IMG/VR virus record: IMGVR_UViG_3300045131_002193
Span: 1 to 22,871 of that record
DNA from: a virus
DNA: 22,871 nt
Strand: one strand, 5' to 3'
Part shown: one piece after another, positions 1 through 17,460 of the stretch
Layout of the letters: each line of letters opens with the position of its first letter
Position numbering within the stretch: the stretch's first letter is position 1
Position numbers and translations under genes: made by a program
Notes under the pieces: model-generated
Databases searched by the model: none
The model's input: only the letters and a program-made list of their open reading frames with translations
What the model was told of the DNA's origin: nothing

Positions 1-300
1 TTCCACCATTATCTACAACTGTGGGAGATTCACTTTACGGTAGCCTCTCTAACGTTACCTTGACACTCTGAGGTGGTATCACACCTTGAGTACTTCTGTT
101 CCTAGGTTACACGTACATCGACCCGAACGTTGTTCTCTACTAATTAAGCAGCAACAACACTTTCTTCACGGATTAAACCGATAGCAGAAAGCTTAGCAAA
201 AGTTTTGCCATTTGTGTTTTTAAATCAGTTGTTACGGAGTTAACTCAGCTCCGACGTGCCATTTATCCCATTACATACCAATCAATGCCAAAGCATCCCC
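1..300 (-). ncRNA. ssrA: Phage-encoded tmRNA (partial, 3' end outside window)
   Basis: Read on the minus strand, the RNA starts at base 300 with GGGGATG, then a D-arm-like stretch (TTTGGCATTGATTGG), as in tmRNA 5' ends. A pseudoknot matching PK1 follows: CGGAG (253-249) pairs with CTCCG (239-235), and AGTT (245-242) in its loop pairs with AACT (230-227). About 11-14 nt later a tag reading frame begins near 215-212 and stops at TAA (146-144). It encodes roughly 22-24 residues starting (T)NGKTFAK and ending IREESVVAA, a typical small hydrophobic, Ala-Ala-terminated degradation tag. The rest has hairpins consistent with later pseudoknots, for example AGGTG/CACCT. The TΨC arm and 3' acceptor strand must lie left of base 1. 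tmRNA rescues stalled ribosomes and tags nascent chains for Clp proteolysis. The resume codon cannot be fixed by eye. The assignment is strong because 5' end, PK1 and tag all agree. Confidence 0.86.
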
Positions 301-319
301 ATATTTTAAAGAACTTAAA

Positions 320-351
320 CAAAGTTAAATATAAATATGGAACAAACCAAA
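320..351 (-). promoter_or_regulatory. Candidate Bacteroidota-type promoter for the tmRNA
   Basis: On the minus strand TAACTTTG (327-320) matches the Bacteroidota -7 element TAnnTTTG. A TTTG (351-348) lies 20 nt upstream, the usual -33 spacing. The tmRNA 5' end is 20 nt downstream, which allows a short leader removed by RNase P. This would be read by the host housekeeping sigma factor, so the tmRNA could be made early. Confidence 0.45.
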
Positions 352-360
352 CGAAAATTG

Positions 361-368
361 TATTTATA
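361..368 (+). promoter_or_regulatory. TATTTATA box (candidate phage late promoter)
   Basis: GTATTTATA lies 14 nt before the TTG start at 383. The same octamer stands ahead of several other genes in the window. It equals the reverse complement of the T4 late -10 element TATAAATA. A TATAAATA in T4 orientation also occurs on this strand at 330-337. Confidence 0.4.
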
Positions 369-382
369 AGAAAATTATTACT

Positions 383-1429
383 TTGGCGAACTCAGGAGAA
401 CTATTTCAGAATTTAAGAAAATACGTGAGAGGGACTATTGATAGATATGAATTGGAGAGATCCGATTCTTCTATTTATCGTGTTAATGAAAACTCCACCA
501 AAGGATTGACTCAAATTATTTTTGACTTCAAAGATGACGATGAATTTTTTGGTTTACTAGATCTTAGTGATGATGATGCGTGGTTTGCTAAGGTTGTCGA
601 CTCTTCATATTCTGATGGTTACACCTTTAGAGATTATCATCAAATAAAAGAGGATTTCAGAGACGGATACAGTGTTTTTTATGAATTCAACGAAGAAAAT
701 AAAGAAAAACTACTATCAATTTTATCAATACTTGATCCTACTTTCAATTATGAAAATTTTCCGTCAGAAGAAACAAATAAAAAGGCGGCTAGTGTCATAT
801 CTAAATTTTTTGAAAAAGAAACTGATAATATAGTTGATGATTGGGGAACTGAAATGAATAGCGCAGCAAATAAAAGTGCTGCCGAATACATTAATAACGA
901 AATTGGAAGGGTCCTTAACGAGAATGGTTTCCAATTGTATAGTAAATATAATTCCGTTAAGATTGATGTTGGGCATTTAATAATGTTATATGTTAAAACA
1001 GGTAAAGCGTGGTTAAGTTTCAAAAAACTATTTAAAGAAGTTTATAAAGATCTGAAAAATATCGGAGGTTGGGCCGAAGATACATACCAGTATGAAAGCG
1101 AGTCTGATTTTGATAAAGATTCTTTTAATTACTATGTGGACCGACAATTAAGTAATATGGAAGAAGAACTGGAAAAAATTGAAAACCTTCAATCCTTCAC
1201 TGAAATGGTTACCAGAATCAACAAGCAATTTAAGCCCAATGTTGCATATAATTTACCAAAATTGAAAGGGGTTACTTTTGTCATTAAAGGTTTTGATAAA
1301 GATGATATGAAAATTAATGTAGATCTAAGACATGGATTGAAAAAGATAAGTAGAAAAGTATCCGAGGAGAATTTCTATAATTTACTATATCAGCCTGAAT
1401 TATTTGACTTTGGATTTGGTAATGTGTAA
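383..1429 (+). CDS. Unknown 348-residue phage protein
   Basis: I do not recognise a family. The start is TTG at 383; the first in-frame ATG would remove about 155 residues, and a TATTTATA box lies 14 nt upstream, so TTG is preferred. The protein is soluble-looking, with no signal peptide or membrane segment. It is acidic in its first 110 residues, with runs such as KDDDEFF and DLSDDDAWF. The middle, about residues 185-240, is lysine/aromatic rich. An acidic helical stretch around 255-285 (NMEEELEKIENLQ) may form a coiled coil. The C-terminus (KGVTFVIKGFDKDDMKINVD) looks like a small beta-rich end. It lies between the tmRNA, transcribed in the opposite direction, and the M20 peptidase on the same strand 33 nt downstream, so it may be cotranscribed with the peptidase. 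No function is assigned. Confidence 0.72.
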   Translation: MANSGELFQNLRKYVRGTIDRYELERSDSSIYRVNENSTKGLTQIIFDFKDDDEFFGLLDLSDDDAWFAKVVDSSYSDGYTFRDYHQIKEDFRDGYSVFYEFNEENKEKLLSILSILDPTFNYENFPSEETNKKAASVISKFFEKETDNIVDDWGTEMNSAANKSAAEYINNEIGRVLNENGFQLYSKYNSVKIDVGHLIMLYVKTGKAWLSFKKLFKEVYKDLKNIGGWAEDTYQYESESDFDKDSFNYYVDRQLSNMEEELEKIENLQSFTEMVTRINKQFKPNVAYNLPKLKGVTFVIKGFDKDDMKINVDLRHGLKKISRKVSEENFYNLLYQPELFDFGFGNV

Positions 1430-1462
1430 AACTTTTCATACATTTACTTCAAATAATTTATA

Positions 1463-2302
1463 ATGTCAGAAGATTTACAACTTTTAAAATCAGTTCTTAG
1501 CGTACCTACAAAAACTTATAAGGAAGACCTTATGGTTAAATTCCTTGTTGAATGGTGTAAAAAAGAAGGATTGGATCATTATGTGGATGAATATAAAAAC
1601 GTCTATGTAACAAAATCACAGGAAGATGTTTCTGATGACTTTTATTATCCTTGTGTCGTTGCTCACACCGATACCGTTCACGAATTAGATACTATTAACA
1701 TACGAGAAGAGCAATTACCTAATACTCAAAAAGAGATTAAATTAGCACTTAAGGCGTATAACAATCAGGGAAATCCAACAGGAATTGGTGGTGATGATAA
1801 GTGTGGTGTTTTTGCTTGTATGAAATTGTTAAAAGAACTTCCATATTTGAAAGCAGCTTTTTTTGTGTCTGAAGAAACTGGATGTCATGGATCAGGTAAA
1901 GCTGATCCAGAATTCTTCAAAAATGTCGGATATGCAATTCAATTTGATGCACCTGAAAACTGGATGATTACTGAAAAATGTTTTGGTCAAGTACTGTTTG
2001 ATAGAGACTCTGAATTTTACACCGTAATTGATTCTATCTTAACAGAAGGAATGATTAAAGAAGATATGGAATACATGGTACATCCATATACTGACGTGTA
2101 TGCCCTTAGAGGTAAATTTGATTTCTCTTGTATAAACTTTTCCATTGGATATTACAATTATCACACAAAAAACGAATACGTTGTTATTGATGATGTTTAT
2201 AATGGAATTGAGATGGGTAGAAAAATGATAGAACAGTTAGGTTATAAGTTACACTTTAAAAAATCTGCCCCATACATGCGTCAATCGAATCTTTGGGATT
2301 AA
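1463..2302 (+). CDS. M20-family zinc metallopeptidase, short (lid domain apparently missing)
   Basis: All the metal-site motifs of M20/peptidase-T-like enzymes are present in order: HTDTV (H68, D70), GGDDKCG (D111/D112), SEETG (E137, E138), QFDAP (D162) and YHTKNEY (H234). The family binds two zinc ions and releases amino acids from short peptides in the cytoplasm. At 279 residues it is much shorter than the roughly 400 usual for the family. Only about 50 residues separate D162 from the C-terminal half of the catalytic domain (TDVYALRG), where a lid/dimerisation domain of more than 100 residues is normal, so the protein seems to be a bare catalytic domain. No signal peptide is seen. It lies 33 nt after the unknown gene on the same strand. 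Its stop codon overlaps that of the convergent HExxH gene by 3 nt. A role in recycling Clp-generated peptides is inference. Confidence 0.85.
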   Translation: MSEDLQLLKSVLSVPTKTYKEDLMVKFLVEWCKKEGLDHYVDEYKNVYVTKSQEDVSDDFYYPCVVAHTDTVHELDTINIREEQLPNTQKEIKLALKAYNNQGNPTGIGGDDKCGVFACMKLLKELPYLKAAFFVSEETGCHGSGKADPEFFKNVGYAIQFDAPENWMITEKCFGQVLFDRDSEFYTVIDSILTEGMIKEDMEYMVHPYTDVYALRGKFDFSCINFSIGYYNYHTKNEYVVIDDVYNGIEMGRKMIEQLGYKLHFKKSAPYMRQSNLWD

Positions 2303-2955
2303 ATAAATTCTTCTAATTTATCTAAATGTTGTTTTACAAATGGATGATCAGAAATGTCTTTAATTTCTTGTCCACTGTCTCTCATGTGCTTTAATTGATT
2401 CGCAAGTTGCGTGATCTGAAACTTAACCATTTTTGATAGTGTAGGATATTTTTCAATATAATCGGATAGTCTAAATAAAATTTTAGCCTTCTCTATTGGA
2501 ATTTTTGAGTTCATCACAATTTCTGCAATTTTCTTTTTCGCAAACTCATCAGCATCTAACTCCATTTTCCAGTATTTTTCAGATAATTCCTCGAAATCGT
2601 CTAAACTATCTATAGTGGGATTACCCATTTTAAAAACTGATATTTGTTGTTCATGTCTCATTTCATGAAAAATGGTGTATAAAAAATCACCAATACCTGA
2701 CATAAAATTTGGTGAACAAATAACGACGGCTTTATCTAACCTAACTCCACTAAACCCTGTAGAACAACTGTTCAAAAATTTTACAGTATAGTTGTTATCT
2801 CTAATATAAGATTTAACATAATCAGATATCTTGTCTACCTCATTCTTATGTTCTTCAGGAAATGATGATTTGAACTTATCCATCACTTTATCAAAGTGAG
2901 AAGTTTTGATAACTTCCTCTTGTTCCTTCATTAAATGTTTAATTAGATCGATCAT
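2299..2955 (-). CDS. HExxH metalloprotease-like protein (gluzincin type)
   Basis: A 218-residue protein with FHEMRHEQQ (H97, E98, H101), the zinc-binding and catalytic motif of many metalloproteases. It is followed 30 residues later by MELDADEFA, where E132 is the likely third zinc ligand and the xDADxFA context is typical of small HExxH peptidases. The N-terminal 60 residues are charged and helical, and the C-terminal 80 are helical. There is no signal peptide, so it probably acts in the cytoplasm. The start ATG at 2955 has a TATTTATT box on the minus strand 3 nt upstream, just after the clpC terminator, so it seems to have its own promoter. Its stop overlaps that of the convergent M20 peptidase gene. 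Its substrate is unknown; processing of a virion or host protein is possible. Confidence 0.75.
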   Translation of the reverse strand: MIDLIKHLMKEQEEVIKTSHFDKVMDKFKSSFPEEHKNEVDKISDYVKSYIRDNNYTVKFLNSCSTGFSGVRLDKAVVICSPNFMSGIGDFLYTIFHEMRHEQQISVFKMGNPTIDSLDDFEELSEKYWKMELDADEFAKKKIAEIVMNSKIPIEKAKILFRLSDYIEKYPTLSKMVKFQITQLANQLKHMRDSGQEIKDISDHPFVKQHLDKLEEFI

Positions 2956-2958
2956 AAT

Positions 2959-2966
2959 AATAAATA
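2959..2966 (-). promoter_or_regulatory. TATTTATT box before the HExxH gene
   Basis: On the minus strand TATTTATT lies 3 nt before the ATG at 2955 and directly after the clpC terminator. It is a one-base variant of the TATTTATA boxes ahead of several plus-strand genes. Confidence 0.35.
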
Positions 2967-2967
2967 C

Positions 2968-2992
2968 AAAAAAAGGGGGAATTACTTCCCCC
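2968..2992 (-). terminator. Intrinsic terminator of clpC
   Basis: On the minus strand, a perfect 7-bp stem GGGGGAA / TTCCCCC with a 4-nt loop is followed by seven T residues. It begins 6 nt after the clpC stop codon, which separates clpC from the HExxH gene. Confidence 0.9.
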
Positions 2993-2997
2993 TTATA

Positions 2998-5007
2998 TTA
3001 TTTACCCTTTTTAACTTTTATTTCATCACCGTCAGCGATTACTTTATAGTTAGAGTTTTCCTTTATGGTACCTTTCAGTACTTCTTCGGAGATTAGATCT
3101 TCAATCTTATCTTGGATTGCTCTTTTTAGAGGTCTAGCTCCATATGTGTCATCGTATCCAACCTTTGATATGAAATCAACTACGCTTTCATCATAATTGA
3201 TTTTATAGTTCATGTCTTTAAGACGTGTGAACAATTTATTGATTTCAATCTCAGCAATCTTCTTGATGTCTTCATTATTCAAACTATTGAATGTGATGAT
3301 ATCATCGATTCTGTTTAAGAACTCAGGTGAGAAGAAGTTTTTCATTTCTTTCATAAGAACTTCCTTCTTTTTCTCATCATTACTGTATTTCGAAGAACCG
3401 AATCCAATACCTGTTCCGAAGTCCTGAAGTTTTTTCACACCAAGATTTGATGTCATGATAATCATGGTATTTCTGAAATTAATCTTTCTACCTAAACTAT
3501 CTGTTACGTGACCATCATCCATAATTTGAAGAAGGACAGAGAAAATGTCTTTATGAGCTTTTTCAACCTCATCAAATAAAATTACTGAGTAAGGTTTGTT
3601 TTTAACTTGTTCAGTTAATTGACCGCCTTCATCGTATCCAACATAACCTGGAGGAGCTCCCACTAATTTAGATATTGTGTGTTTCTCTTGGTATTCACTC
3701 ATATCTACACGAATTAATGAATCCTCTGTTCCAAAAATTTCTTTAGCCAATTGTTTTGCTAAGTGAGTTTTACCTACACCTGTTGATCCTAAGAAAATGA
3801 ATGATCCGATAGGTCTATTTGGATCTTTGATTCCAAGACGATTTCTGCGAATGGATTTAACAATCTTAAGAACTGCCTCATCTTGACCAACAACCTTTTG
3901 TTGAAGAGTTTTATCTAAATCGACTAACGCTTTGGTATCGTCAACAGACATTTTGTTCACAGGAATTTTAGTCATAGTTGAAACAACATCGTAAACTAAT
4001 TCTAATGTGATTTCACGTTTAGATTTAGACATTTCTTCTTCAAATTTTTTCTTTTCAGAATCTAATTTGGCGATAATCTTTCTTTCTTTATCTCTTAACT
4101 CAGCGGCTTGTTCGTAGTTTTGTTTTTTAACTACATCAATCTTAAGTTGTTTGATTTCAGATGCCTTTGTCTTTAGATCTTCAATAACTTGAGGAATCTT
4201 CATGTCCAGTTGACAACGAGCACCTACTTCATCTAAGATGTCGAAAGCTTTATCAGGGAATTCACGATCAGTGATATAACGGTCAGCAAGTTTTACACAA
4301 GCTTTCAATACTTCATCACTATAAGATACTTTATGGAAAGACTCATATCTGTCTTTAGAATTTAAAAGGATTTGGAAAGTTTCTTCCATACTCGCACCGT
4401 CAACAACAACCTTTTGGAAACGTCTTTCTAATGCTCCATCTTTTTCAAAATTTTTACGATATTCATCAAGAGTTGTCGCACCAATACATTGTATTTCACC
4501 ACGAGCTAAAGCTGGTTTGAATATATTGGATGCGTCTAATGAACCTGAAGCATTACCAGCACCTACAATGGTGTGGATTTCATCGATGAATACAATGATA
4601 TTTGGGTTAGCACCAAGTTCTTCAATTATCACTTTCAATCTTTCTTCGAATTGACCACGATATTTTGTACCAGCTACAACTGAATTGATATCGAGATTTA
4701 CAATTCTTTTATCCATCAAATTTTTGGGACAATCACCACTAAAGATTTTCATGGCCAAACCTTCAACGATTGCAGTTTTACCACAACCAGGTTCTCCAAT
4801 GATAATTGGGTTATTCTTTTTTCTACGGGAAAGAATTTGTGCGATACGGATTATTTCTTTTTCACGTCCAATAACAGGGTCTAATTTACCTTGTTCTGCT
4901 AATTTAATCAAATCTCTACTGAAGTTATCCAACACAGGTGTTGAACTATCAGACTGAGATTTCTTTTTACTCATCATTTTGTCGTCGTCGTCCATTAAAT
5001 CGTTCAT
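2998..5007 (-). CDS. clpC: ClpC-type AAA+ unfoldase lacking the N-terminal Clp_N domain
   Basis: This 669-residue two-ring AAA+ ATPase unfolds proteins. The D1 module has Walker A GEPGCGKT (71-78) and Walker B VFIDEIH (139-145). The middle region carries a UVR-like ClpC segment ([15 protein letters not shown], 294-308). The D2 module has Walker A GSTGVGKT (407-414), Walker [12 protein letters not shown] (475-485) and sensor-2 GARPLKRAI near the end. A TGIGFG loop (IGF at 534-536) matches the motif by which ClpA, ClpC and ClpX dock onto ClpP; ClpB lacks it. Host ClpC proteins are usually above 800 residues because of an N-terminal adaptor- and substrate-binding domain. Here that domain is absent and replaced by about 25 charged residues. 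The gene ends in a strong terminator and is divergent from hsp20. No clpP is in the window, so partnering with host ClpP is inferred. Confidence 0.95.
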
Positions 5008-5051
5008 ATGTTATTAATTTTTACAAAGATGTATCAAAAATTAGACACCAC

Positions 5052-5135
5052 CAAATATATTGTCAAATTGTCAGTAATTATTTTTTTAACTGACATATTG
5101 TCGTTTTTATATTTGAAGAACTGAAAAATTTTCAG
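5052..5135. promoter_or_regulatory. Divergent clpC/hsp20 control region with inverted repeats
   Basis: The 194-nt gap between clpC (-) and hsp20 (+) holds TATATTTG on the minus strand (5059-5052) and TATATTTG on the plus strand (5108-5115). Both match TAnnTTTG; the plus-strand copy has TTTT 20 nt upstream, a weak -33. Between them lies the inverted repeat TGTCAGT (5069-5075) / ACTGACA (5089-5095). The pentamer TTGTC occurs three times (5060, 5068, 5098). Next to the plus -7 element is a palindrome CTGAAAA-A-TTTTCAG (5121-5135). These look like operators co-regulating the chaperone pair; the regulator is unknown. Confidence 0.45.
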
Positions 5136-5201
5136 TAATTTTTGGGTGGCATATAAGTTGATTCTGTAAAGGTAATAAAATAAATTTAAAACAAAAAAAT
5201 T

Positions 5202-5606
5202 ATGATTTACAGAAATTTATTCGGAGGACCGACTTATGATTTTGAAAAAGTGTTGGAGATGCTTAATTACGACAGGCCAACATACAGAACAACTAAAATC
5301 ACAACCCAAGATGGGAATGCTCATGAGATTAATTACACAAAAGATGGTGCGTATCTTTTCTTTGAAGCTCCAGGTTTTAATAAAACAACTTTGAAAGTTG
5401 AAGTGGAAAATGGAATCATACATATCCAAGGAAGTAGAACGTACAAGTTAAATGGGGAAGAAAAAACAAAATCAATTGAACAACAATTTACAATTGGTAC
5501 AGATTTGAATCCAGAGTCTATCGAGGCAACAATAGAAGACGGTCTTTTAACCGTGTTCATTCCTAATTTTAAAAAGCAAGAAAAGAAAAGAGTTAGTCTT
5601 TTATAG
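5202..5606 (+). CDS. hsp20: Hsp20-family small heat-shock protein
   Basis: A 134-residue protein with an alpha-crystallin domain at about residues 30-128. Visible signatures are YLFFEAPGFNKTTLKVEVENG (split here as YLFFEAPGF then the strand TLKVEVENG), IIHIQGSR, and the conserved ATIEDGLLTVFIPN near the C-terminus. Small heat-shock proteins hold unfolding proteins for later refolding or degradation by ATP-driven chaperones. The N-terminal arm is short (about 30 residues), and the C-terminal tail KKQEKKRVSLL is brief with no clear I-x-I motif. The leader is A-rich with no Shine-Dalgarno sequence. It is divergent from clpC, sharing a repeat-rich control region, and is followed by a strong terminator, so it is probably monocistronic. 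Similar genes occur in marine T4-like phages, where a role in head assembly has been proposed. Confidence 0.92.
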   Translation: MIYRNLFGGPTYDFEKVLEMLNYDRPTYRTTKITTQDGNAHEINYTKDGAYLFFEAPGFNKTTLKVEVENGIIHIQGSRTYKLNGEEKTKSIEQQFTIGTDLNPESIEATIEDGLLTVFIPNFKKQEKKRVSLL

Positions 5607-5667: not shown

Positions 5668-6003
5668 ATGGATATGATTGATAAATTTTTGGAAAACAAT
5701 GTAAGCCTAAGGGGGATGTTAGATACGTACCTTGAATTGAGATTACATTTACAAGAGGAGGGATATAGTCAAGAATCATTGGAAAGGGTTGTGCGTCCTA
5801 CGAATAAGATGATTGAATTACATGAAAGGTTTGTTAGTAAGAAAAATTCTTTATTTAAACAAATTAAGGCTTATGGTTTTGAAATAAATCAGGGTGAGTT
5901 ATCTGAATACATCCAGCCGTTATTAAATAAAATTGATGATATAACCCCACTTAAAGAAAATGGCAATAACGAAAGAAACGATATCGGGAACGAAGATTAT
6001 TAA
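5668..6003 (+). CDS. Unknown small helical protein
   Basis: A protein of 111 residues, or 109 if the second ATG at 5674 is used, which would give the more usual distance from the TATTTATA box. No family is recognised. It looks alpha-helical and soluble: DKFLENNVSLRGMLDTYLEL and RPTNKMIELHERFVSKKNSL are amphipathic, while the C-terminus is polar and disordered (KENGNNERNDIGNEDY). The disordered tail is encoded where the reading frame overlaps the start of the KTSC gene by 44 nt, so the last 15 residues are constrained by two frames. The overlap suggests translational coupling. Function unknown. Confidence 0.68.
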   Translation: MDMIDKFLENNVSLRGMLDTYLELRLHLQEEGYSQESLERVVRPTNKMIELHERFVSKKNSLFKQIKAYGFEINQGELSEYIQPLLNKIDDITPLKENGNNERNDIGNEDY

Positions 6004-6202
6004 CGAAATTAAATCTTCCAATATTAAGAAAACTGAATATGATACAGAGACTAAATTAATGATCTGTGAATTCAATAATGGACTCAAATATGAATATAAA
6101 GATATACCACACGCAATCTACACAAAATTCAGAATGTCCGAATCACAAGGAAAATTTTTCACAACAGACATCTCAAAGAAGTATCAGTATAAAAAACTCT
6201 AA
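5960..6202 (+). CDS. KTSC-domain protein
   Basis: An 80-residue protein whose residues about 18-77 match the KTSC domain pattern: SSNIKKTEYD, then a strand ending CEFNNGLKYEYKDIP, then HAIYTKFRMSESQGKFF and a final ISKKYQYKKL. KTSC domains are small and widespread in bacteria and phages. They occur alone or fused to other proteins, for example lysyl-tRNA synthetase-like ones. Their function is not established; nucleic-acid binding is only a guess. The start ATG at 5960 lies inside the preceding gene in another frame, so the two are probably coupled. The next TATTTATA box lies 10 nt after its stop. Confidence 0.8.
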   Translation: MAITKETISGTKIINEIKSSNIKKTEYDTETKLMICEFNNGLKYEYKDIPHAIYTKFRMSESQGKFFTTDISKKYQYKKL

Positions 6203-6219: not shown

Positions 6220-6223
6220 TGTG

Positions 6224-8227
6224 ATGAGTAATTTCCAAAAAATATTAGATAGCTTTAATCTCAGGGATACTTTAAACCCAAAAATATGGGATAATCCAGA
6301 AGATCCTAAAAAAGCAAAAATGAAACCCAAAGTTAAAAATGCTTTGATGAAGATTGCAAATGAGTTTATCGATTATCTCGGTGATGATGCTTTTGTGGAA
6401 GATATCACCCTTACAGGATCCCTATCTAACTTTAATTGGTCTGAATATTCAGATTTTGATTTACATGTTATTGTAGATCTTGAAAGATTTGAAAAAGAAG
6501 AAGAAACTTACAAAGAACTTTTTAACCTTAAAAAACAAGTTTTTAACGACAAACACGACATCAAAATTTTCGGATATGATGTTGAATTGTACGCACAAGG
6601 TTCAGAAGAAAAACACGAAAGTTCAGGTGTTTATTCTGTAATGGAAGATAAATGGATAAATCAACCTGAAAAATTAAAAGTTAATATTGATAAGTCAGTA
6701 ATAGAAGACAAGGTAAAAAATTGGAATGAAAAAATCGAGAACGCATTAGAAGAATTAAAAGGAGATAACTTAGAAAAAGGAAAAAAGAAAATTGAAGATT
6801 TAAAAACTAAGTTGAAAGATTATAGAAAATCAGGTTTAGATAAAGACGGAGAATTATCATATGAAAATTTAACATTCAAATTCTTGAGAAGAAATGGGAT
6901 GATTGAAAAATTATTTAATACCTATAACAACTACATGGATAGAGAATTATCGATAGAACAATCTTTATCTGAATCAATCGTGAGTTATTTAAAAGAGGTT
7001 AGCTCTGATTCATTATTGGGTGGAAGTAGTGTAACAATTCCAAAAGATGGAGCCCATGGAGGACAGAGTGGATGGCATTCAAGTAATGCTTGGGATATTA
7101 AAGCATCAATCGGAGATCCTGTTTTTGCATTAGCCGGTGGTACTGTTCAGACTTTTTCTGATTACGGTGCGGATGTGATTAAAAGAGGAGGAAAGAAATT
7201 ATACGGACAAAGTTTTACAGTCAATAGTGACGGTGGTTTACCAGACATTTATTATACTCACTTAAAAGGAGCCACAGTTGGTAAAGGAGATAAGATCCAA
7301 TGCGGTCAATTAATTGGATATGTTATGGATTTTCCTGGCAGTTCTTATGATCACGTACATATAGGTGTTGAATCAGGACATAATATTCGTGAATTTTTAA
7401 ATGACGATGGTTCATTAAAATGTGCCAAAGGTCAAAAATTAGGAAAATACGGTAAAAAATTCAGTGAAGACGGGGAAATTTCAGATTTAGTTGGAGACTC
7501 AAAGTTCATCCAAGAATTAATGAAAATGGCTGAATCTAATAAAAGTGCAGAATACTTACCCGGTAAAATTAACTACGATAAGGACGTTGAGGTAATACAA
7601 ACTGCATTACAATTTTTAGGTTTCTCATTACCAAAATGGGGTGTGGATGGAAAATTTGGTCCTGAAACTCAAAATGCAACAAAACTGTTTCAAAAATCAG
7701 TTGATTTAACAGAGGATGGAAAGATAGATGGATTCGATTTAAGGTATTTGACTGCCATGTTAGTTATCAGAAAATTTTCTGACGAAGACTTAACAAAAAT
7801 TCAAACGAAAAAAGAAATTGACACTACCAATATCACAGACAAAAATTTTTATGAAAAATTATTAACTGAATTAGGCGCACCCGTAACTTCTGAAAATTTA
7901 AAATATCTATACGCTTGGAGACAAGCTGAAGGTAAAGGAGGAAGATACAACCCATTCAATACTACGTGGAAAAGACCAGGTTCAACTAAGATGAACTCTG
8001 ATGGTGTACAACACTATACATCATTGGAAGAAGGAATGATTGCAACTTTAAAAACCTTAAGAAATGGTTATTATGATTGTATTGTTAATGGTCTAAAAAA
8101 TGATATAGGAGCCGCTCAAATTTCAAAATGTCCATCACTTAAGACTTGGGGGACTGGTAATTTAGTTGCTAAAGTAGTTAAACATTACGAATCAGGAGCG
8201 TCCCCGAACATAAAGAGCCTCGCATAA
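6224..8227 (+). CDS. Four-module cell-wall protein: nucleotidyltransferase + M23 peptidase + peptidoglycan-binding + lysozyme-like
   Basis: A 667-residue protein from ATG 6224 (a GTG lies just upstream at 6221). Module 1, about residues 30-150, has LTGSLSNFNWSEYSDFDLHV with GS at 65-66 and D77/D79 plus a later VELY. These are the catalytic signs of a Pol-beta-fold nucleotidyltransferase. A lysine/glutamate coiled coil follows (about 160-210). Module 2, about 275-395, is an M23 zinc endopeptidase with H285, D291 (WHSSNAWDI), the YYTHL histidine and HVH at 377-379. Module 3, about 447-511, is a PG_binding_1 repeat (DVEVIQTALQFLGF, GVDGKFGPET). Module 4, about 540-667, resembles phage lysozyme/transglycosylase domains (YAWRQAEGKGGRYNPFNT). 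No signal peptide is seen. It is probably a virion-associated lysin or an endolysin; no holin is nearby. The nucleotidyltransferase fusion is unusual. Confidence 0.85.
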   Translation: MSNFQKILDSFNLRDTLNPKIWDNPEDPKKAKMKPKVKNALMKIANEFIDYLGDDAFVEDITLTGSLSNFNWSEYSDFDLHVIVDLERFEKEEETYKELFNLKKQVFNDKHDIKIFGYDVELYAQGSEEKHESSGVYSVMEDKWINQPEKLKVNIDKSVIEDKVKNWNEKIENALEELKGDNLEKGKKKIEDLKTKLKDYRKSGLDKDGELSYENLTFKFLRRNGMIEKLFNTYNNYMDRELSIEQSLSESIVSYLKEVSSDSLLGGSSVTIPKDGAHGGQSGWHSSNAWDIKASIGDPVFALAGGTVQTFSDYGADVIKRGGKKLYGQSFTVNSDGGLPDIYYTHLKGATVGKGDKIQCGQLIGYVMDFPGSSYDHVHIGVESGHNIREFLNDDGSLKCAKGQKLGKYGKKFSEDGEISDLVGDSKFIQELMKMAESNKSAEYLPGKINYDKDVEVIQTALQFLGFSLPKWGVDGKFGPETQNATKLFQKSVDLTEDGKIDGFDLRYLTAMLVIRKFSDEDLTKIQTKKEIDTTNITDKNFYEKLLTELGAPVTSENLKYLYAWRQAEGKGGRYNPFNTTWKRPGSTKMNSDGVQHYTSLEEGMIATLKTLRNGYYDCIVNGLKNDIGAAQISKCPSLKTWGTGNLVAKVVKHYESGASPNIKSLA

Positions 8228-8272: not shown

Positions 8273-9103
8273 ATGGCATTAGTTACATATCTCATAGGGC
8301 CTTGTTCTGGCGGAGCATCAATATTAGTTGATTTTGATAGTTCATCATTGCCTGCAGTTAATGGAAATTATTATTTAACATTTACTGGTGGAACAACTCA
8401 GGGGTGTTATGATATTATTGATAACGCAGAACCAGCAACAGGAGTTGATAAAGTTTTAACCTTATCGGTTGACTACGGAGATTGTGGAACTTGTCAAGCA
8501 GTTGTTACTCCAACACCAACACCATCTACAACAGCGGCTGTAACACCGACACCAACAGTTACAACAACTAAAACTCCAACACCAACACCAACTCAAACAG
8601 GAACACCTTCAATAACATCAACATCAACACCTACACCAACAAAAACTCAAACAGGAACACCTTCAATAACATCAACATCAACACCTACACCTTCGGTTAC
8701 AACAACTCAAACAGGAACACCTTCAATAACATCAACATCAACACCTACACCTTCGGTTACAACAACTAAAACACCTACACCAACCCCAACAAAAACTGCG
8801 GGTGTCACACCAACACCAACAGGGACTGCGGCGGTTACACCAACACCAACAACAACTGTTACTCCAACAAACACGGCTACACCAACACCAACCCCAACAG
8901 CATTTGGAGTATTTTATGCTAACGAATATTACGAATTTACGGATGGAATGTTTGGATCTTATAGTGGAGGAACCGCACCTGTGGTACCACCTCTTGTAAA
9001 TGTTCCTCACCCAATAAATCAAGCAATGATTGGAGACCAAAGAGGTACAGTACAAGATCAAAGTGCTGTTGCTTTAGGAGGATTCAACGGATTAAATAAC
9101 TAA
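8273..9103 (+). CDS. Thr/Pro-rich repeat protein, probably a virion surface or fibre-like protein
   Basis: A 276-residue protein in three parts. Residues 1-80 form a compact beta-rich domain with four cysteines (GPCSGG, GCYDII, DCGTCQ) that I do not recognise. Residues about 81-210 are almost wholly Thr, Pro, Ser and Val, as TPTPT runs plus three copies of [15 protein letters not shown]. Residues about 211-276 are a second small domain ([20 protein letters not shown]) with a Gly/Asn-rich end. Such linkers are extended, protease-resistant and often O-glycosylated, so an exposed spacer on the capsid or tail is plausible. There is no signal peptide. It has its own TATTTATA box and is followed by the acidic protein gene 20 nt downstream. 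The function is not known. Confidence 0.75.
8591..8767 (+). repeat. In-frame tandem repeats in the Thr/Pro-rich gene
   Basis: Three near-perfect copies begin ACTCAAACAGGAACACC at 8591, 8645 and 8705, giving periods of 54 and 60 nt. The last two agree over at least 60 nt at the DNA level, including third codon positions, which points to recent duplication by slippage or recombination. All periods are multiples of three, so the reading frame is kept. Shorter CCAACACC units flank them on both sides. Confidence 0.9.
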
Positions 9104-12929: not shown

Positions 12930-14684
12930 GTGACAAAAGAACAACTAATTATTGAAGCCACGAAGTGTATGAAAAACACTCCGTACGCCATGAGGACATA
13001 CCTTCAAACGTTTGATAATACGGTGAAGAAGTATGTTCCTTTGGATTTATTTCCCGACCAAGTTACTTTGGTTGAAGATTACGACAACTATAACGAAAAT
13101 ATTGCCCTGAAATATAGACAAGCGGGTGTATCAACAGTGACAGCTGCTTGGGCATCAAAAAGACTTGTTTTTGCAAAAAAGAATAATCCTGAAAAGGTTC
13201 TAATCATTGCAAACAAACTTGATACGGCGGTAGAATTTGCAAACAAAGTTAGATCATTTACGGAGCAATGGCCACAATGGGTTGGTGCTGGGTTTTCTCC
13301 TGATAAAAATGCGGCTCGACATTTCAAACTATTAAATGGGTGTGAAGTTAAAGCGGTTGCCACTTCAAAGGATGCCTTACGTGGATATACCCCAACAATT
13401 CTAATATTTGATGAAGCGGCATATATTGAAGCCGATGATGATTTCTGGGCAGCCTGTATGGCCTCACTATCTACGGGTGGTAAGGTTATTGTTATTTCTA
13501 CTCCAAACGGATATGATCAAATTTACTATGAAATTTATGATCAAGCCCTTAGGAAAATGAACACATTCAATATTACTGAGATGTTTTGGTTTAAAGATCC
13601 AAGATATAACAAAGATTTACAGATGATTAAAACTGAGGATCTTGTTGAATATCTTTTAAATAGAGAAAACTATCCAGATACAGAAATAGTTGACCTTACA
13701 GTTGAAAATTCATATGAGAGAGATTATACCGTTGTAAGTGAATATTTGTCTAAAGGATTTAAACCTTACTCAACATGGTTTGAGGGAATGGTTAAAAAAC
13801 TTAAGTATGATAAGAGAAAAGTGGCACAAGAGTTGGAATGTAATTTCTTGGGGTCGGGTGATAATGTGTTTGACGCCATTCAATTAATGAGAATTAAAGA
13901 AAACGACATCAAAGAACCAGATGGTAAGATGATGGCCGGTAATTTATGGATATGGAAAGAACCTGTATTAACACACAAGTATATTATGGGTATTGACGTT
14001 TCAAGAGGTGATTCTGAGGACTTCTCGTGTATTGTGATAATAGACTTTGACGATAGAGAACAAGTGTTTGAATACGTCGGAAAATTACCACCAGACACAT
14101 TGGCTGAAATTGCGTTTAAGTGGGGTAACATGTATAACGCATTTGCCGTTACGGATTTAACAGGAGGTATGGGGGTTGCAACAGCAAGAAAACTACAAGA
14201 ATTGGGATACAAAAATTTATATGTTGAAGGTGTTACAGATAAAAACAAATATAAGTGGGACCCCAAAAGAGACGAAAAAATACCTGGAATTAATTTTAAT
14301 AATAAACGTGTTCAAATTATTGCAGCATTTGAAGAGGCACTAAGGCATGATTTTAAAATTAGATCATCAAGGTTATTGAATGAGATGGGTAAATTCATAT
14401 ATGTTCATGGTAGACCAGATCACCAAAAAGGACATCATGATGACTTAATCATGGCAATATCTATGGCAATTTATGTTGGAGACACCTCATTCCAAAGTTT
14501 ATCTAAAGTAGTTAATCAAACAAAAGTCATGATTGATGCATGGCATACAAGCGTAAGTGATAATAGAAATAGATCTGACTTTTTTAATCCTATGATACCT
14601 TCGGGTGGATCAAATAGTGGAAGGTATCCATCAGAGGCGTCAAAAAGTGATTATGAAAAGTATTTATGGTTATTCGGGAAGTAA
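12930..14684 (+). CDS. terL: Terminase large subunit (T4 gp17-like)
   Basis: A 584-residue packaging motor protein that cuts concatemeric DNA and pumps it into the prohead through the portal. The ATPase domain has a Walker A-like loop YRQAGVST (62-69), where a serine replaces the Lys of RxxGKT-type loops, and Walker B ILIFDEAAY (about 155-163). A coupling motif VISTPNGYD follows. The C-terminal RNase H-like nuclease domain shows GIDVSRGDSEDF (first metal Asp), AVTDLTGG, and a final acidic motif GHHDDLIMAISMAIY. The start is GTG at 12930, 6 nt after the preceding stop; the first ATG would lose 13 residues. It lies immediately upstream of the portal gene. In T4 the tail genes 18 and 19 lie between these two. 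Confidence 0.96.
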   Translation: MTKEQLIIEATKCMKNTPYAMRTYLQTFDNTVKKYVPLDLFPDQVTLVEDYDNYNENIALKYRQAGVSTVTAAWASKRLVFAKKNNPEKVLIIANKLDTAVEFANKVRSFTEQWPQWVGAGFSPDKNAARHFKLLNGCEVKAVATSKDALRGYTPTILIFDEAAYIEADDDFWAACMASLSTGGKVIVISTPNGYDQIYYEIYDQALRKMNTFNITEMFWFKDPRYNKDLQMIKTEDLVEYLLNRENYPDTEIVDLTVENSYERDYTVVSEYLSKGFKPYSTWFEGMVKKLKYDKRKVAQELECNFLGSGDNVFDAIQLMRIKENDIKEPDGKMMAGNLWIWKEPVLTHKYIMGIDVSRGDSEDFSCIVIIDFDDREQVFEYVGKLPPDTLAEIAFKWGNMYNAFAVTDLTGGMGVATARKLQELGYKNLYVEGVTDKNKYKWDPKRDEKIPGINFNNKRVQIIAAFEEALRHDFKIRSSRLLNEMGKFIYVHGRPDHQKGHHDDLIMAISMAIYVGDTSFQSLSKVVNQTKVMIDAWHTSVSDNRNRSDFFNPMIPSGGSNSGRYPSEASKSDYEKYLWLFGK

Positions 14685-17280: not shown

Positions 17281-17460
17281 CTATTTCATTTTTTGAGAGT
17301 AGATTGCCTTTAATTTCTGTGTTCTCTTTTTAACCGATGGTTTCACAAATTCCTTTCTTTCAAAAAGTATTTTTTGTTGTTTTGTTTTAATAACTTTAGA
17401 CTTAAGAGTTTTTAATGCTCTTTCTAAATTTTCGTTTTTTCCAATTTCTACAATTATCAT
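17281..17460 (-). CDS. rpsU: Ribosomal protein bS21, phage-encoded
   Basis: A 59-codon minus-strand frame from ATG 17460 to TAG 17281-17283. The protein begins MIIVEIGKNENLERALKTLK and has the family's central FERKEFVKPSVKKRTQKLKA (33-52), then IYSQKMK. This matches bS21 in order and spacing: MII-start, ENxExALKxxK, (R)xxFxKPSVxKR, then a Tyr near the end. Host bS21 is about 64-70 residues, so only the C-terminal tail is shorter. bS21 sits on the 30S platform beside the 3' end of 16S rRNA. In Bacteroidota it helps bury the anti-Shine-Dalgarno sequence. A tyrosine at residue 54 fits, from memory, the one implicated in Flavobacterium. It is the only minus-strand gene in the head block, with a TATTTAAT box 3 nt upstream. 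Other phages are known to carry bS21. Confidence 0.93.
   Translation of the reverse strand: MIIVEIGKNENLERALKTLKSKVIKTKQQKILFERKEFVKPSVKKRTQKLKAIYSQKMK

Follow-up and report, generated by a model that had tools for sequence, protein, structure and literature searches.

A candidate ribosome-rescue and proteolysis module in large bS21-encoding phages of Bacteroidota

Does a phage that carries a transfer-messenger RNA (tmRNA) gene close to genes for a ClpC unfoldase and two peptidases have its own route for rescuing ribosomes and degrading the released proteins, or do these genes only share a locus? The question is raised by one end of the viral contig IMGVR_UViG_3300045131_002193 from IMG/VR, a linear fragment of 22,871 bp that is covered whole by the stretch of DNA analysed here (the window). 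A preliminary description, made from the letters alone, had placed five parts of such a route (tmRNA, ClpC, Hsp20, an HExxH protein and an M20 peptidase) within 5.6 kb. These parts are real; M20, ClpC and Hsp20 have Pfam matches, and the tmRNA is borne out by relatives of the window. The block contains the following elements.

1-300, minus strand: tmRNA gene, 5' part, with the tag GKTFAKLSAIGLIREESVVAA; 3' part lost at the contig end
383-1429, plus strand: g348, a conserved protein between the tmRNA and M20 (AlphaFold2 model, pLDDT 93)
1463-2302, plus strand: M20-type metallopeptidase, similar to PepT and aminoacyl-His dipeptidase (Pfam M20, E-value 2.7e-5; phrog_4191, 7e-35)
2299-2955, minus strand: HExxH metallopeptidase-like protein (FHExRH ... 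MELDAD), accessory
2998-5007, minus strand: ClpC-type AAA+ unfoldase without N-domain, with a UVR motif in the M-domain and an IGF tripeptide (AAA_2, 7.5e-70)
5060-5103, no strand: putative operator region, two near-palindromes in the divergent promoter
5202-5606, plus strand: Hsp20 small heat-shock protein with alpha-crystallin domain (Pfam HSP20, E-value 5e-11, 43 bits, cut-off 20.8)

We read the block as a vertically inherited module for ribosome rescue and proteolysis, tmRNA plus phage ClpCP, of large bS21-encoding T4-like Bacteroidota phages, and we regard this reading as evenly balanced between right and wrong. It draws on the genes themselves, the tag and its conservation, the active sites of the ATPase and of ClpP, the docking tripeptide and the link between the operator and Hsp20 or a UVR-repeat protein, all of which can be read from the sequences. 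In our best reading, trans-translation would be joined to a ClpCP route that belongs, at least in part, to the phage alone. In infected cells, the phage tmRNA together with host SmpB (the phage's own in a few members) would free stalled ribosomes and append a phage-specific tag of 21-22 residues to the freed chains. The tagged chains would be read and unfolded by the N-domain-less phage ClpC. Unfolded proteins of other origin would also reach ClpC, either from Hsp20, which would hold them, or through a UVR-repeat protein acting as adaptor. ClpC would prefer the phage's own ClpP, in which the unfolded chains would be cut, and downstream of ClpCP the M20 enzyme, which resembles PepT, would trim the resulting peptides. 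A single palindromic operator would switch ClpC together with its Hsp20 or UVR partner; what this operator binds, and the timing of the module, we infer. The outcome would be recycling or degradation of tagged proteins.

Neither ARAGORN nor Rfam at its gathering score found a tmRNA in the window. A permissive search with RF00023 gave a match of 14.4 bits (gathering score 47; E-value 7e-4) on the minus strand from 300 to 1, cut by the contig end. A complete tmRNA lies at the same place in two close relatives, L006 (98.6% identity over 420 nt) and L005 (95.8% over 358 nt), and the window gene is therefore real and lacks its 3' part. The tag of both relatives is GKTFAKLSAIGLIREESVVAA, so the tag end VVAA had been read correctly.

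To place the window among its relatives, three single-protein scans of viral contigs were used (the best 80 matches were kept, out of 170 for M20 and out of at least 597 for ClpC), and loci were collapsed by shared 200-mers into 88 clusters, the window's own counted in. With a tmRNA profile of the clade, a full copy was found in 76 of the 88 clusters, a partial one in 2 and none in 10; in all 10 the contig stops no more than 82 nt from g348, M20 or ClpC. The Rfam model detected a tmRNA above its cut-off in 44/50 and 25/40 related contigs. The g348 gene is divergent from the tmRNA in 78 of 78 cases, with a median gap of 75 nt. An acceptor stem with a G3-U70 pair has the identity element for alanine, and G3 is paired with U70 in 71 of 76 relatives, a count that concerns the relatives, the 3' end being missing in the window. 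The five exceptions (L063, L089, L117, L133 and L142) have other or mis-trimmed ends.

Tags were decoded in 76 clusters; the distant phage tmRNAs L216-L219 stand outside this count, and ARAGORN's single prediction for L216 was set aside. The phage tag has 21 residues in 61 clusters and 22 in the other 15, and three positions are near-invariant: K6 (74/76), G11 (76/76) and L12 (74/76). The final residue is alanine in 71 tags, isoleucine in 4 and serine in 1, with VVAA, VAVA, VTVA and VVGA as frequent ends, and none of the 76 tags ends in LAA or MAA. For comparison, host tmRNAs were found in 29 of 30 Bacteroidota genomes (a low-quality second ARAGORN prediction in L313 was excluded), and all 29 have 9-residue tags ending in LAA or MAA. 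The resume codon of the phage tmRNAs is GGC in 69 of 76 (GGA in 4, GAC in 3), and the first tag residue is G in 73, as it most commonly is in host tags. With this first residue in common, the phage tag has the look of a host tag that was rewritten. In the 61 tags of 21 residues, the ratio of nonsynonymous to synonymous polymorphism (pN/pS) was 0.58 in frame versus 0.89 and 0.87 in the shifted frames, indicating that the peptide itself appears to be selected. Reuse of the tag motif as a signal in phage proteins was considered and rejected: the 15 strong matches to a tag profile overlap tmRNA genes.

A long tag might also be protective or serve sorting, so that truncated phage proteins without an LAA or MAA end are kept from host ClpXP. 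The complete separation of phage (0/76) and host (29/29) tags by these ends fits this idea, and so do the near-invariant positions 6, 11 and 12 in a tag whose end varies. The end nevertheless stays small, nearly always alanine, and a small C-terminal end is degron-like in E. coli. ClpC and ClpP are, moreover, kept by the same clade. We regard a protective tag as very improbable.

In the ClpC of these phages, both AAA+ modules have intact Walker A and B motifs, pore loops and Arg fingers in all representatives covering them (88 representatives, 2 of them partial). The ClpP-docking tripeptide is present in 83/86 full-length proteins (IGF in 67, VGF in 15, LGF in 1), and the UVR motif of the window ClpC was recognized by Pfam above its cut-off (E-value 1e-4). 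No Clp_N domain occurs among the best 25 of 26 Pfam matches of the window ClpC. In 85/86 phage ClpC only 36-63 residues stand ahead of the DPVIGR motif, versus 199-253 in 79/80 host ClpC, indicating that the N-domain is gone from the phage protein. The closest solved structures are ClpC (best PDB match), and the best 80 bacterial relatives are all from Bacteroidota by title. In a tree of 18 phage representatives, 16 of the 80 host loci and 2 huge phages, the phage sequences form one clade apart from the included hosts (support 100/100).

A ClpP is encoded in 29/50 related contigs (Pfam CLP_protease above cut-off, E-values 1e-60 to 4e-50). The distance from the tmRNA 3' end to the ClpP gene beyond it is 8.8-26.8 kb; both genes are on one strand in 24/24, and ClpP was found in 23 of the 26 contigs having at least 18.7 kb beyond a tmRNA above cut-off. 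The Ser-His-Asp triad is intact in all 28 distinct phage ClpPs. When the ClpP of L167 was compared with NCBIfam models, it reached 233 bits with the ClpP model (curated cut-off 361) versus 71 and 83 bits with the prohead ClpP-like models; none of the three models reaches its curated cut-off, and on sequence the protein is classed as ClpP rather than as a prohead ClpP-like protease. The phage ClpPs form one clade apart from the included hosts (support 100/99) in a tree whose phage members come from this clade only and whose other members are 15 of 30 hosts and E. coli. At the position of E. coli Y62, which we take to be in the ATPase-docking pocket, 26/28 phage ClpPs have His versus Tyr in 30/30 host ClpPs. 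Given that a ClpP is encoded by the clade itself, redirection of host ClpP, one of the two uses suggested in the preliminary description, is probably not the main route, and the actor of the module is probably the phage's own ClpCP. The window's own phage would have a ClpP too, judging from relatives such as G003, in which a ClpC 86% identical to that of the window and a near-identical tag are accompanied by ClpP.

SmpB was found in only 3/50 contigs, which suggests that it is mostly taken from the host. Two of the three copies adjoin the tmRNA directly (L169 in G031, and G049:C1:83981-84397); the third, in G024, is far off.

The control region proposed between ClpC and its divergent partner is upheld by a palindromic operator that is conserved in relatives. 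ClpC and Hsp20 of the window diverge across 194 bp, in which two near-palindromes, TGTCAAATTGTCA (5061-5073) and TGACATATTGTCG (5091-5103), are each one mismatch off the clade palindrome TGACA-N3-TGTCA. Taken alone, the matches in the window are not above chance (2 seen, 1.19 expected), so the evidence for the operator rests on the relatives. TGACA-N2-5-TGTCA is present in the ClpC intergenic region of 45/86 clusters, whereas 200 shuffles preserving base composition only gave 0.03 on average and never more than 1. When the longest locus of each of the 86 clusters was searched (1.59 Mb), all 57 perfect palindromes fell in the ClpC intergenic region. The gene opposite ClpC encodes Hsp20 in 31/86 clusters, a UVR-repeat protein in 41/86 and something else in 14/86. 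Here, Hsp20 was counted at E<1e-30 (relaxed iteration drifted into KTSC proteins, and those rows were dropped), and UVR motifs were confirmed by Pfam in 10/10 other divergent open reading frames (ORFs) tested, the remaining UVR assignments being profile-based. A palindrome or at least two half-sites were found in 69/72 clusters with Hsp20 or the UVR protein versus 0/14 without them. In L094 (9457-9828) and 40 other clusters, a small UVR-motif protein takes the place of Hsp20 behind the same operator.

Similar sites were found in hosts. The upstream regions of host hsp20 (28 of 30 loci; the start was the most upstream in-frame ATG and may overshoot) contain 49 half-sites versus 13.6 in shuffled sequences (largest 24), and a palindrome is present in three of them. 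In 30 host regions taken as control, there were 8 half-sites versus 15.1 shuffled. Upstream of host ClpC, half-sites are mildly enriched (55 versus 34.9 shuffled, 79 regions), and 0/79 hold a palindrome. It is thus plausible, from these sequences, that the phage uses an operator of the host heat-shock type. The UVR-repeat protein sharing an operator with a ClpC whose M-domain has a UVR motif is reminiscent of the UVR partners in McsA/ClpC-type systems and may likewise interact with ClpC. By analogy with UVR-domain proteins that were trapped on plastid CLPC1 (PMC8889267), it may act as a ClpC adaptor.

The last step of the proposed route would fall to the M20 protein. Its Pfam score in the window is exactly at the curated cut-off (24.6 of 24.6). 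The metal and catalytic residues (HTD / GGDD / EE / D / H) are kept in 86 representatives, one of them partial and 4 with GGDN, and H234 is invariant in 27 sequences. All four PDB matches are PepT or Xaa-His dipeptidase. By what is known of the family, the enzyme would fit a peptide-finishing role.

Conservation of the block was assessed in the 67 clusters anchored on ClpC, which represent one clade because they were drawn from the best ClpC matches, and gene counts were restricted to clusters with enough flank. M20 was present in 58/58, g348 in 49/49 and the tmRNA in 43/43 (63/66 for M20 and 60/66 for g348 without flank correction), and the order tmRNA-g348-M20-ClpC is invariant in the clade wherever the contig is long enough. 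The conserved proteostasis block that had been predicted thus exists for the tmRNA, the PepT-like M20 peptidase and ClpC, but it does not extend to HExxH (21/63) and Hsp20 (22/65), which are accessory genes of the block.

Several observations weigh against reading this block as a functional unit. The neighbours on the head side are conserved equally well in the same set (KTSC 60/60, M23 protein 59/59, terminase 51/52), and four of the five ORFs between the M23 protein and the terminase are kept in 66/66 clusters. The conservation of the block is therefore that of the whole region, co-occurrence inside the clade may reflect descent only, and we rejected co-occurrence alone as functional proof. 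Divergence is large nonetheless: identity to the window copy is 72-89% for ClpC and 21-56% for g348. In addition, enrichment of the operator words was seen neither upstream of the tmRNA (25 seen versus 26.5 shuffled, 78 upstream regions) nor upstream of ClpP (6 versus 10.3, 17 upstream regions). Control of the tmRNA by the ClpC operator was accordingly rejected, and co-regulation of tmRNA and ClpC in one regulon is unsupported. Three contigs have tmRNA and ClpC without ClpP despite room beyond the tmRNA (G045, 44.7 kb; G049, 30 kb; G039, 18.7 kb), and no ClpP was found among the 69 ORFs of the window. No adaptor tying the tag to ClpC was identified, and among the 38 matches of the tag profile (E-values up to 50) in the ORFs of the fetched loci, the 23 outside the tmRNA genes start at E 0.36.

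Distant huge phages point in the same direction. No M20 or g348 was found within 10 kb of ClpC in LR745206, LR756502 and LR756508, or within 1.5 kb on either side of it in LR756504. A tmRNA was detected at E<=1e-10 in LR756508, LR756504 and Lak-C1; none was found at this threshold in LR745206 and LR756502, and Lak-C1 has no ClpC of the clade type at E<=1e-20. In LR756504, ClpP and M20-like places occur as well, at large distances from one another. In these phages the parts are thus dispersed or lacking, and the linked module is a feature of the clade, not a general phage rule. Single genes at unrelated loci, the pattern that the preliminary description had named as speaking against a common system, are not seen within the clade and are largely what the distant huge phages show.

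All this would suit genes that are independent of one another and neighbours by descent. In that case the tmRNA would only rescue ribosomes, in support of heavy late translation together with phage bS21, and its tag would be read by host proteases, while ClpC, ClpP and M20 would each have a task of their own, for instance the removal of host defence or takeover targets. The equally conserved head-side genes, the lack of operator words at tmRNA and ClpP and the separation of the parts in distant phages are in line with this explanation. So are the bS21 genes above cut-off in 39/50 related contigs and the tmRNAs known from unrelated phages (PMC4131195, PMC9004378). A tag that departs from the host's in 76/76 clusters and is constrained as a peptide is, however, hard to explain with host proteases as readers, and ClpC and ClpP are each kept as one phage clade. 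We consider independent genes rather unlikely.

The position of the block also brings to mind quality control of virion assembly, in which ClpC, Hsp20 or the UVR protein and M20 would remove head proteins that have assembled wrongly and break down the peptides released by the prohead protease, the tmRNA being incidental. Its fixed place beside KTSC, the M23 protein, terminase and portal in relatives is compatible with such a role, as are an S77 prohead protease and Gp23 nearby in the window. ClpP, however, is found 9-27 kb past the tmRNA, on the side facing away from the head module, and ClpC is on the opposite strand with an operator of its own. Its half-sites, furthermore, resemble the sites enriched at host hsp20, which speaks for stress-type regulation. 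Quality control of assembly thus appears improbable.

The proposed module of tmRNA and phage ClpCP can be developed one step further, into a channel orthogonal to that of the host. Here, the phage tag would be read poorly by host ClpXP and well by phage ClpC/ClpP, with the front half G-N-x-x-x-K-(L/M)-x-x-x-G-L as recognition element. ClpC and an interchangeable Hsp20 or UVR partner would be driven by a heat-shock operator resembling the host's, rescue would benefit the phage, and disposal would take place outside host control. We put this forward tentatively, as an extension that is possible but less likely than not. The tmRNAs of phages are long known, but there is, to our knowledge, no consensus on what they are for. 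With a tmRNA invariantly beside a phage ClpC, a clade mostly having ClpP and an unusual tag, the question of which protease the tag leads to becomes directly testable. If the reading is true, tag and protease would be a natural pair distinct from the host's, of use as a tool and for insight into protein turnover in large phages. The swap of UVR protein and Hsp20 behind one operator is a handle on ClpC regulation in Bacteroidota.

In comparison with bacterial trans-translation (tmRNA-SmpB with ClpXP or ClpAP), the phage system is alike in its match to the tmRNA model, the Ala-type acceptor, the tag followed by a stop and the first G. It is unlike in being phage-borne, in its tag of 21-22 instead of 9 residues, never ending in LAA or MAA, in its own ClpC and ClpP and in the rarity of SmpB (3/50). 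Phages carrying ssrA were known before: Bxz1-type mycobacteriophages and Bacillus phage G (PMC4131195), the OM43 phage Melnitz (PMC9004378) and huge phages (PMC7162821). Purposes for the phage tmRNA are proposed in PMC9004378, including the degradation of tagged host proteins for Melnitz. No Clp genes tied to the tmRNA were found in the consulted passages of these papers, and the main texts of PMC9004378 and PMC7162821 do not contain the term Clp, whereas in the clade described here tmRNA, g348, M20 and ClpC are invariant neighbours.

The preliminary description knew of no phage system combining these parts. We likewise found no report of the combination, but chaperones and Clp protease were already named as proteostasis genes of bS21 phages by Chen et al. 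2022 (PMC9723584). These bS21-encoding Bacteroidetes phages share with ours the strand layout of bS21, a Bacteroidota host and Clp/proteostasis genes; tmRNA is absent from the main text of PMC9723584, and the tag, the pairing of ClpP with ClpC, the UVR partner and the operator were not found in the consulted parts of that paper. For the moraphages, a ClpA-type ATPase and a 'putative peptidase' are listed among the shared virus orthologous groups (VOGs), each with occurrence 24, and some encode HSP20 (PMC12619734). They are likewise T4-like large aquatic Bacteroidota phages. They differ in that PMC12619734 gave no hit for tmRNA and lists ClpA and the peptidase unlinked. The Sinorhizobium jumbo phage AP-J-162 resembles the clade in combining a single tmRNA with six Clp-like ORFs, Hsp20 and DnaJ (PMC11242549); its host and relatives are others, and no linked module or tag analysis was found in the consulted part of that paper. 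Among the main texts of mostly non-subscription papers, none was found that describes the long tag or the linkage of tmRNA, M20 and ClpC, and none that describes the UVR swap or the operator. Clp, Hsp20 and peptidase genes were known in such phages before.

Two further proteins of the block are less easily classified. The HExxH protein of the window has no family match in Pfam or in PHROG at E<=0.001. Its residues H97, E98, H101 and E132 are invariant in 32 sequences, as in a gluzincin-like HExxH motif plus glutamate ligand. Weak Pfam matches to DUF6782 were obtained for 16/32 members (best E-value 0.0046), and Foldseek (best E-value 0.2) listed PprI, ArdC and selecase among weak matches; no convincing family or fold emerged from Pfam, PHROG and Foldseek. 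A CxxC...CxxC zinc ribbon is inserted near the N-terminus in L025, L028, L039, L053, L064 and L099, and also in L105, L120, L121, L127 and L131; the window copy is without it. The g348 protein had no PDB sequence match at E<=0.01, no PDB fold match at E<=0.001 and no Pfam family common to more than 2 of 48 members. It is both an invariant neighbour of the tmRNA and, at 21-56% identity, fast-evolving.

One distant phage carries an additional RNA. In LR756508 (L219, 414804-414915), a tmRNA-like RNA of 112 nt consists of little beyond the tRNA-like ends, and a full tmRNA is found in the same phage. The short RNA resembles the RNA of mycobacteriophage DS6A that consists of the tRNA-like domain (TLD) only (PMC4131195).

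Beyond the block, the window contains a T4-like head module with terminase, portal, S77 prohead protease and the capsid protein Gp23. Three further features are of use in placing it.

5960-6202, plus strand: KTSC-domain protein, invariant neighbour on the terminase side
12930-14684, plus strand: terminase large subunit, lineage context
17281-17460, minus strand: ribosomal protein bS21 (PF01165, E-value 2.3e-11)

The bS21 gene is flanked by the portal and protease genes and lies on the strand opposite to the head genes. The same layout, with bS21 opposite to the genes for the large terminase subunit (TerL), portal, protease and major capsid protein (MCP), was described for Bacteroidetes phages of up to 331 kb (PMC9723584), and on this ground the window is a fragment of a T4-like, bS21-encoding phage of Bacteroidota. 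Annotated phages are distant: among the best 30 of 1541 records, the top-ranked terminase match has 28.5% identity. An ORF at 8273-9103 contains a long Thr/Pro repeat tract, and a homologue was found in 48/66 clusters, possibly helped by low complexity. At 6221-8227, one ORF joins a nucleotidyltransferase-like domain with an M23 peptidase and a peptidoglycan-binding domain; in many relatives its counterpart is shorter, at about 250 aa.

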